DNA from: an uncultured Planctomycetota bacterium
GTDB taxonomy: Bacteria > Planctomycetota > Brocadiia > CAIUPP01
Direction of reading: 5' to 3'
DNA: 39,324 bases
Assembly (NCBI GenBank): GCA_903901045.1
Contig: CAIUPP010000039.1
Coordinates: 1-39,324 of the forward strand
Part shown: positions 17,957-35,927 of the stretch, piece after piece
How positions within the stretch are numbered: the stretch's first letter is position 1
Layout: each line of letters begins with the position of its first letter
The notes under the pieces: generated by a model
The model's input: the letters and a program-made list of their open reading frames with translations, nothing else
Databases searched by the model: none
What the model was told of the DNA's origin: nothing
Made by a program: the position numbers and the translations under genes

Positions 17957-18083
17957 CGCCTGACTTGACGCCGCTGTCTCGTTAGGACATACTGTGGGCA
18001 ACAGTATGATTAGCCCCATCGGCCGGAAAGCATAACTTGTCATAAGCGCCCGTAGCTCAGCTGGATAGAGCGGCGGTTTCCTA
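17957..18083 (+). repeat. Left 127-bp direct repeat (candidate attachment site copy)
   Basis: It aligns without gaps to 35801-35927, offset 17,844. Positions 17957-18000 (44 bp) and 18036-18083 (48 bp) are identical in both copies. All 12 mismatches fall between 18001 and 18035. The repeat covers a promoter, a leader and the first half of a tRNA-Arg gene. Similarity ends abruptly inside the anticodon loop at TTTCCTA. Confidence 0.9.
18046..18083 (+). pseudogene. 5' half of tRNA-Arg(CCT), truncated in the anticodon loop
   Basis: It is identical to the first 38 bases of the complete tRNA-Arg at 35890: acceptor 5' strand, D-arm, anticodon 5' strand and CCT. After 18083 the sequence no longer pairs with the anticodon stem or the acceptor stem, so it cannot fold as a tRNA. 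Confidence 0.88.
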
Positions 18084-18219
18084 GGGTGGTCGACTGGGTC
18101 GGGGCATGCCCTGGCGAACCTTGAAAACACTGGGCGGAGAAATAATTCCCCCTAATTCAGGCCAATTCAGCCCATTTTTCCGCCGCAGAATCGCCGCAGT
18201 ATGAGACCTGTCCTGAGGG

Positions 18220-21200
18220 CTATCGCCGCCGGACTTCCATCAGCGAGATGCCCCAGGGCTTTCCGGCCTCGGCCGGTTCGAAGGATATCGTCAAGCCGCT
18301 GTCTCCAACCGTGGTCTCGAAGTCCACCTTGCTGACGCCCTTTTCCGGCGGTTGCGGAAGCAGGTAGCTCTTGCCATCGGTGAGCGTCACCCGCGCGGCG
18401 GCGGGCGTGACCCAGCCGACCTGCGGAAGTTCGGTATCCAGCGAGGAGGAGAAGAGGGAGATGGCATAACGGCCGGGGTCCAGTGCGACTTTGAATCGGG
18501 CCTTGCCGTCGATCACGATCATGCGGCCCCTGGCATCCGGCGGACCGCTATGCCAGGAAAAAGGCTTCGCCGCGCTGTTGAAGAAGTCCTTGGGCTCCTG
18601 TTCCCACCCGAACGTGATCGTGGGCACCGGCGGGGCAACGTTCGCGGGCGGCGCATCGGGCGTTACCGCGAGGTATCTCAGCGTGAAGCCTGGATGCCGA
18701 ATCGCATGATGCCGCCACAGCCCTTTTCCGGGCACGGGCTGCAGGGTGATGTCCAGTCCGTTGGCCTCTGCGCGGCCCCAAAGCGAGATACGCTCGAATG
18801 GCGTTCCCCCCGCACCGATGCACTCCTTCGAAAGCGTCCACGGCGTGGCGACTGGTCGGTCGTTGATGAGCGCCTCGAAGAGCCCGCTGGCGCCGTTCAT
18901 GGCCTCGATATCCACGCGGTAAGAGCCGGCGGGAACGGCAACGTGATAGGTGGCGGAGCCGGGGAAGTCAACCGTGCCCGCGCCTTTCACGGCGAGTTTG
19001 GTGCCTGGCATCCAGCCGGAGCCGCCCTCGCGCATAGCCGCGAGATCGCAGACTATCGGCTGTCCGACTGCCACGGCATCGTCTACTTCGGCGCTGGCGG
19101 CCAGCAAGGACAGCCGATGCCCTTTGCCGGTATCCACGAGTTCCATGCTGTCCAGTTGCTCAAAGCGTAAGGGGACCTCCAGGAGATTCAGAAGCGTCGT
19201 CGTGCCATCCCAGTACGGCGAAACTTTGAAGGCGCGCGCGAGGCTGGCCTTGGTGGCTAACCCCCAGTAATTCCAGCGCTCGTATTGTTCCAGATTGCGC
19301 AGATCCACGGTCTCGGCCTGTCCGTCGGCATACCGAAGGGTCAATTGTGCGCCGATGTCGTGATTGAACTGCGCCGCGTCGGCCGTGCAAAGCAGGAAGA
19401 ATCGCCGCGCCTTAAGGCGCACGGGCACACGCACCAGTTCTTTGTCGTGGAGTACGACCGCCGCTTTCCCGGTGTTGGCGCTCGGATGGATGAGGTCGAA
19501 GGGAACGCCCGAGAGTTCGATGCGTCCGCCCCAAGGCAGCCCGTAGACGTAGCTTTCCTCTTCGCGGACGGAGAAATCATTCCGGAAGACCACGGGATAA
19601 ACGCTCATCTCGCGCACGGGGTAACAACCGGGTTCCACCTCATCCCACACGAGGAAGTCCAGGCGGAGCGTATCCCCGCCTACAGGGGGGGCGCCGGCAG
19701 CAGGCTTGCCGTCCACGCGAAGTTCGTTCCACGGGTTCGCGTTGGCTGCCGAGCGCAGGTCCAGTGTCCGCACGCGCGCCCGGTCGATCCCTTTCAGCGG
19801 CACGCCGGACCAGCCCCAGTCCCAGCCGACCCCGCCTTTACGCAAGCGGGGAGCCGAGTCTAGCAGGTCCTTCTCTGTCAGGCCTGCTTCCACCGCATCG
19901 GCCAGCATATAAGGAAAAACCGAAAGCGCGCTGAAATCCGTGGCGTTGGGATTATTCACCGAACTTCTTGCCAGCGGGATCAACTCCTCGAACGTCATCT
20001 CGCGCAAGGGCTTCTTGAGAAGTTTGTCCGGCCAGAATTCCTCCAGAGCGGGGACGCAGTAGGGGTCCCACATCGAGTGGATCAACTTGAGGGCGTCGAG
20101 GAAGGCGGGGTCCTTCTCCAGTTGCCAGGCGAAGGCATATTGAGCGCCGCCGAAGCTCAGGCCAGGCCTCTCCAGGCGCTTGCGCGCGACCTGGAGCCAG
20201 CGCGCCGACATTTCAGCGTCACGGGTGAGCAGCAGGTAGCCCATCAACGACGGGAGCTGAATGGTCGGCGAACGAAAATGCGGACGGTCCAATTGGCCAT
20301 AGTCGCCGGTATTGAAACCGTAGTAGTTTCCGTGGGCGTTTTCCTTGGCCTTTGTCTGCCAGCTCTTGTCGCCGGTCACCGCGGCCATACGAGCCAGGTA
20401 CTCGCCGACATACTCATCCTCCGGTCCGCCGCCATGCAGGTGGAAGTTGGCGTATTCCTTCGCCACGTCCAGGCAGCGCAGGTCACCCAGGAGCAGGTAC
20501 ATATCCATTGCGCCAAAGGTGGCCGTGCCGTAGCCGACAAGGAAGTTGCCCCAATGCTGTTCATCATGCCGGTGACCGCCGCCGATGGCTCCGGGATCTT
20601 CGTCAAAATGGACCGTATCGATATCGGTCACGTGGCGCACGAGGTTCTCCCAGAAGTCGAGGAGGCGCCGGTCGCCGCTGCGGAGGAACTGCACGAGGGT
20701 GACGCGATCGGTGGCCCCATCGTTGTTGAGCCAGCCCATATAGCCTCGTGATACCCAACTTTTGGGTCCCGAATCCCCTGCCTGTGTGGGCATCTCGTAC
20801 CCGGTGAAAAGGATGTCGCCGAAGTCCACGAAGCCGTACCAACCGAACTGCGACTGGTTGCGCAGGCGCCATTCCATGGCCAGGTCGGTGTAAGTCTCCA
20901 GCCGGGGGAAACGCGCGACGTCTCGCCGGTGGAACCGGGGCAGGATGCCGGCCCCGGAATACCACTCCGGCGACGCGAGGGCGACCAACCGCTGGTTGAA
21001 GGATGCGACGGTGTTTTCAATTTCGGTGGGAGTGAGGCCGGCATCATGGAACCAAAGGAGGACTTCATGGGTCTTCGCAATGCCCCGCCCACCTTTCGGG
21101 TAGTTGCCCAGGTCGTAATGCACCTTGTCTTCCACCTCGTCGTAGCGCCTGCGGAGGTCCAACACCTGGTCGCCCTGATCGGGCCACAGGTATTCCGTGA

Positions 21201-35638: not shown

Positions 35639-35800
35639 TGAACGAGGACACTCGTCGTTCTCGGGAATTCCATCTGACAGCGGCAGTGTCCCAGAAGGGG
35701 CGATGAGCCGTTACAGGGCGTGTGCCGCCTCCTGTAGGTTTGCTACGATAACTCTTCTTCAGTCGAAAACAGAGAAGTCTCAAAGACAGGTGCATCCGGA

Positions 35801-35927
35801 CGCCTGACTTGACGCCGCTGTCTCGTTAGGACATACTGTGGGCATCGGCATGAGTCGCCCCATCGACCTAACGTCATACCTTGTCATAAGCGCCCGTAGC
35901 TCAGCTGGATAGAGCGGCGGTTTCCTA
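35801..35927 (+). repeat. Right 127-bp direct repeat, continuous with the intact tRNA-Arg
   Basis: It is the partner of 17957-18083 (115 of 127 identical, ungapped). It begins 163 bp after the last island gene. Unlike the left copy it continues past TTTCCTA into the correct 3' half of the tRNA. Confidence 0.9.
35809..35837 (+). promoter_or_regulatory. Predicted promoter of tRNA-Arg
   Basis: TTGACG (35809-35814), a 17-bp spacer and CATACT (35832-35837) lie 52 bp before the mature tRNA. The same promoter is present without change in the left repeat (17965-17993). The leader between promoter and tRNA is where all differences between the copies lie. Confidence 0.55.

Follow-up and report, generated by a model that had tools for sequence, protein, structure and literature searches.

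Among the 3919 islands of the Islander collection, 159 leave a 5′ fragment of the target tRNA gene (tDNA) (PMC4383910), and PMC6563490 refers to Zhao and Williams 2002 on recombination involving the 5′ region of tRNA genes. In archaea, pTN3-like integrases take the 5′ half of a tRNA gene as attB, and the restored gene uses a promoter borne by the element, a form of tRNA restoration described as "seldom encountered" in bacteria (PMC8371274). A literature search for tRNA islands of planctomycetes found no paper on the subject.

The window analysed here, a stretch of 39,324 bp, is the whole of contig C39 of an uncultured planctomycete assembly (G000: 154 contigs, 4.77 Mb). It contains an interval that is very probably a tRNA-targeting element integrated in the reversed manner, belonging to a tyrosine-integrase family at tRNA-Arg(CCT). 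The orientation is the rare kind, in which the promoter and 5′ half of the target gene are replaced, a point absent from the sequence-only reading from which this analysis set out. The features of the two junctions, in window coordinates, are as follows.

17957–18083, forward: left repeat copy, comprising a displaced promoter, leader and tRNA-Arg(CCT) 5′ half (115/127 identity with 35801–35927)
17965–17993, forward: sigma-70-like promoter of the left copy, TTGACG-17-CATACT
18046–18083, forward: truncated tRNA-Arg(CCT) 5′ half, its last base A37 of the anticodon loop (matches the intact gene at 38/38 positions)
18077–18083, forward: probable crossover region, judged from sequence, in the anticodon loop, with TTCCTA common to both copies; it would form the left boundary of the element
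18084–35927, no strand: element body plus restored 5′ module, the 17,844-bp interval between the junctions, with no integrase
18182–18199, forward: putative integrase arm-type site GCCGCAGAATCGCCGCAG, two GCCGCAG words with a period of 11 (exact matches beside tRNA-Arg(CCT) 5′ halves only)
35801–35889, forward: promoter and leader upstream of the intact tRNA gene, with TTGACG-17-CATACT at 35809–35837
35890–35966, forward: intact tRNA-Arg(CCT) (ARAGORN; Rfam score 63.4 bits, cut-off 29)

The sequence-only reading had described an ungapped 127-bp direct repeat with its right copy inside an intact tRNA-Arg(CCT) and its left copy cut within the anticodon loop, and each of these points was confirmed: the two copies align without gaps at 115 of 127 positions (90.6%, 12 mismatches), ARAGORN and Rfam both recognise the intact gene, and the left copy carries 38 tRNA bases before departing from the right copy at the 3′ edge of the anticodon loop. 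The right copy extends to position 37 (CCTA) of the intact tRNA, and so takes in its first 38 bases. No tRNA 3′ half follows the left fragment, nor does any stretch of it of 11 bases or more occur elsewhere in the window. By similarity, 35890–35966 is the only tRNA-Arg(CCT)-like gene in the genome, and the repeat is represented genome-wide by these two copies alone, plus a weak match to tRNA-Arg(CCG); this count of two rules out an ordinary dispersed repeat, the case named beforehand as fatal to the island reading. A left junction formed by a group I intron or by some different RNA was also considered and rejected, Rfam detecting the intact tRNA only. Just left of that junction, a GATase1-like (PF07090) gene fragment at 17100–17630 covers profile positions 75–246 only, its N-terminal part being absent, and may mark another rearrangement.

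All 12 mismatches fall within one 35-nt stretch of the leader (18001–18035), between the promoter and the tRNA start, a clustering with a permutation P of about 5e-6; divergence between the copies in the leader is about one third, and there is no difference between them in either the promoter hexamers or the tRNA half. A left copy that had lain dead for as long as such divergence takes would be expected to show decay in those two parts as well. Because the mismatches are confined to the leader, leaving promoter and tRNA half undecayed, the copies would have diverged while both were functional and before the left one was displaced. The pattern suggests that each promoter and 5′-half module was at that time driving a working tRNA gene. 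The two modules probably stem from different lineages, the incoming one having evolved outside the present host lineage, and the simplest inference is that they were joined recently.

The motif GCCGCAGAATCGCCGCAG at the left inner end lies 98 bp from the anticodon loop. When 18072–18225 was used as a query it matched two other genomes, in both cases at tRNA-Arg(CCT) 5′ halves that had been found independently, and all 18 bases of the motif recur exactly beside such halves in G018 and G003 (another family). Across 75 genomes of the class its 17-mer core CCGCAGAATCGCCGCAG has five occurrences, every one beside a tRNA-Arg(CCT) 5′ half, while the reversed pattern, which served as the control, gave 0 occurrences in the same 75. 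Among 392 sampled genomes of the phylum, which did not include G018, the motif appeared at the window and G003 sites only, and a looser pattern recovered no additional family members in the class genomes. In three fragments (G018:C349, G018:C236 and G003:C43) the match to the tRNA-Arg(CCT) 5′ half breaks off at the anticodon loop or slightly beyond it, within about 0–5 nt of the point corresponding to 18077–18083 of the window, and GCCGCAGAATCGCCGCAG then follows. The spacing between motif and anticodon loop is 77 bp in all three, versus 98 bp in the window, the additional 21 bp approximating two helical turns; the window thus shares the arm motif 75–100 bp inside the 5′-fragment junction by which the family is recognised. 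From their sequence and arrangement, the GCCGCAG words look like integrase arm-type sites, and the motif offers a diagnostic for relatives across planctomycete families. G003 has the same motif inside the intact-tRNA end, and G018 has it there with one mismatch; at the right inner end of the window interval there is no arm motif, the best candidate having 6 mismatches, and this counts against the island reading. Five matches to the motif in viral contigs all proved to be one conserved coding-like stretch of near-identical contigs with no tRNA nearby, and were set aside as chance. The tRNA 5′ half had no match across the viral contigs, nor had the promoter 38-mer across the genome contig collection.

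Two of these relatives retain more of the expected anatomy. In G003:C43 (about 49270–50680), an element of ~1.3 kb consists, in order, of the tRNA fragment, an arm, a UPF0175/DUF3368 pair, a second arm and the intact tRNA; no integrase was found in this mini-element. The toxin-antitoxin-like UPF0175/DUF3368 pair is its only recognisable cargo. In G018:C397, CGCCGCAGAAT-type arm repeats (one mismatch) and a tyrosine integrase of 435 aa (5842–7146; PF00589, 38 bits) lie directly 5′ of an intact tRNA-Arg(CCT). This integrase has one match elsewhere in the 75 class genomes, at 30% in G012, and none in viral contigs; G003 and G000 hold no homologue, and its absence from G000 counts against the island reading. 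So does the outcome in the interval itself, where neither tblastn with 16 integrases nor Pfam detected an integrase, exactly as the sequence-only reading had it. Possible integrase remnants in the window were limited to weak, short tblastn matches (best E 0.011), one of them the tRNA region itself, and were rejected. The only genome of the same family, G001, has one tRNA-Arg(CCT), unaccompanied by a fragment, and upstream of it the same promoter hexamers and spacing. Its flanks are not syntenic, and the DUF5684 protein and glycosyltransferase that flank the window's interval have no syntenic orthologues. With G001 as the nearest genome compared, no true empty site came to light, which also counts against the island reading.

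A complete reversed element was found in the genome of the window itself, on contig C138 (58895–68571), where the 5′ half of tRNA-Leu(TAG) is repeated over 59 exact bp at a distance of 9,573 bp upstream and a 492-aa tyrosine integrase adjoins the intact gene. Tandem ACTGTACCGGAA repeats occupy both inner ends, against an expectation of ~0.02 shared 12-mers by chance. The two repeat copies agree throughout the tRNA half and preserve TTGG(C/A)A and TATCAT, but not the 17-bp spacer; the cargo includes genes that are phage replication O-like and type ISP restriction-like. The reading frame of this integrase passes through the promoter into tRNA-Leu(TAG) and ends in the tRNA 3′ half; excision of the element would therefore change the C-terminus of the protein. 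Integrases 45–46% identical to it are found at conventional 3′-fragment islands in tRNA-Met (C111), and one 52% identical lies in G008, on the 3′ side of tRNA-Arg(CCT). Judged from these sequences, one integrase subfamily appears to use anticodon-loop cores in both orientations, and such use by the C138, C111 and G008 integrases would fit a near-palindromic core. At tRNA-Met(CAT) on C111 the conventional elements are apparently in tandem, and an integrase accompanies two of them; C46 carries another 3′ fragment.

Inspection of the interval between the junctions revealed the following coding content.

18220–22488, reverse: 1422-aa protein with PcRGLX (rhamnogalacturonan lyase-like) domains
22469–23851, forward: GntR DNA-binding domain fused to an extracellular solute-binding domain
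23938–25137, forward: N-methylation/DUF1559 pseudopilin-like protein
25333–27369, forward: 678-aa protein with no Pfam match
26958–30911, forward: CBM9 and GH123-type protein, its true start probably downstream of 26958
30978–34022, forward: sortilin/BNR-repeat protein
34175–35638, forward: GH32/GH43-like glycosidase

Such a cargo plausibly senses and breaks down a glycan, with the GntR fusion probably acting as a sugar-sensing regulator. The union of GntR and extracellular solute-binding domains in one protein is an uncommon-looking layout for a sensor-regulator. The earlier suggestion that the DNA between the repeats forms one polysaccharide-utilisation cluster stands in so far as glycan genes lie inside; they are not confined to the interval, and continue to its left with CBM9, FGGY kinase and isomerase-like genes. 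This continuation counts against the island reading, and because of it the cargo alone would not reveal an island. The 4-mer composition of the interval is not distinct from that of the genome, giving no signal of foreign origin, which likewise counts against.

On the reading favoured here, a tyrosine integrase would have recombined an attP site, itself made up of a promoter, leader and tRNA-Arg(CCT) 5′ half, with the chromosomal tRNA-Arg(CCT), the crossover taking place in the anticodon loop and the anticodon stem serving, as is usual, as the inverted-repeat core. This would have pushed the original promoter and 5′ half 17.8 kb upstream to become the left copy, presumed to be the original chromosomal one, while those of the element were joined to the chromosomal 3′ half to give the right copy. 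The restored tRNA-Arg(CCT) would accordingly be a composite, with its 5′ half from the element and its 3′ half from the chromosome, and would stay functional because of that junction, the promoter and leader at 35801–35889 being element-borne and now driving it. The element would be a member of the tRNA-Arg(CCT) family marked by GCCGCAGAATCGCCGCAG, of which the G018 member keeps its integrase and the G003 toxin-antitoxin mini-element would be another survivor; the copy in the window would have lost both integrase and right arm, and because of these losses would be immobile on its own. What favours this reading is that an intact tRNA and a displaced fragment stand in the layout of a 5′-fragment island with no other copies in the genome, that CCGCAGAATCGCCGCAG is confined to tRNA-Arg(CCT) 5′ halves against a control of zero, that the G003 mini-element has the motif at both inner ends, that G018:C397 pairs arm repeats and a tyrosine integrase with an intact tRNA-Arg(CCT), that a complete reversed element exists on C138, and that the mismatches between the repeat copies lie only in the leader. 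The repeat, the layout of the junctions, the family motif and the relatives with an integrase are observed directly, whereas the recombination itself, the succession of losses and an import from a different lineage are inferred. The arm motif, the G018 integrase beside the same tRNA and the C138 element likewise lend support to the original proposal of a tRNA-targeted island devoid of an integrase.

The absence of both an integrase and a right arm, a composition equal to that of the genome and the presence of glycan genes on either side of the left boundary would all suit a local rearrangement, such as a tandem or segmental duplication of the tRNA-Arg promoter region that inserted glycan genes later split, with a deletion shortening the left tRNA and no site-specific integration at any stage. 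We regard such an origin as improbable: it leaves unexplained both the exact cut in the anticodon loop and why the motif at 18182–18199 should turn up, at a near-helical distance, next to this tRNA half in genomes of another family.

Other alternatives are variants inside the preferred explanation, and the likelihoods attached to them are to be read as such. The missing right arm could reflect the remnant of a tandem array, in which at least two reversed elements entered the same tRNA gene and the inner fragment, integrase and right arm were then deleted, leaving the interval as a fusion; G018, with two arm-bearing 5′ fragments (C349 and C236) and one intact tRNA-Arg(CCT) end, and the tandem elements at tRNA-Met in the genome of the window offer precedents, but the window shows no third fragment and no second arm, and we consider this history rather unlikely. 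Much the same doubt attaches to a non-autonomous element mobilised in trans by the integrase of a helper and never possessing its own, as the G003 mini-element with two arms and no integrase might exemplify: in its favour, the window keeps a left arm but lacks an integrase; against it, the right arm required of a mobile cassette is absent, and the assembly contains no homologue of a helper integrase. As to whether the integrated element decayed, is a tandem-array fusion or was moved by a helper, the evidence does not separate the three. A broader conjecture, and a tentative one that we would not expect to hold, is that a dispersed family of integrase-free cassettes moves metabolic or toxin-antitoxin cargo in trans into tRNA-Arg(CCT) of uncultured planctomycetes; since each cassette would supply a promoter as well as a 5′ half, it would gain control over the transcription of the sole host tRNA with that anticodon.

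With the interval read as an integrated element of the reversed type, its nearest counterparts are the 5′-fragment islands of Islander, with which it shares an intact tRNA, a 5′ fragment upstream in the same orientation and a crossover in the anticodon loop. The terminal fragment is placed as Islander prescribes, and the length of 17,844 bp lies within its 2–200 kb range; Islander also demands an integrase inside the island, whereas the interval has none, and by those rules it could be entered at most as a relative that has decayed or is non-autonomous. The title of Zhao and Williams 2002 describes a reversed target orientation, as in the window, and to the extent of that title the two are alike. 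With the pTN3-like integrases the tRNA is expressed from the integrase promoter, whereas in the window a tRNA-type promoter is carried on the element and the integrase is gone. The C138 element at tRNA-Leu(TAG) resembles the window in its 5′-half duplication, anticodon-loop crossover, kept hexamers and diverged spacer, but differs in having an integrase, arm repeats at both ends, arms of unrelated sequence and a different cargo. Read in this way, the locus would provide a clear bacterial case of a rare form of tRNA integration, in which the element supplies the promoter and front half of the tRNA, and would place glycan-degradation genes inside a tRNA-targeted element in planctomycetes. Reversed 5′-fragment integration is already known, and is rare; the tRNA-Arg(CCT) arm-motif family and its member in the window are, as far as checked, new.
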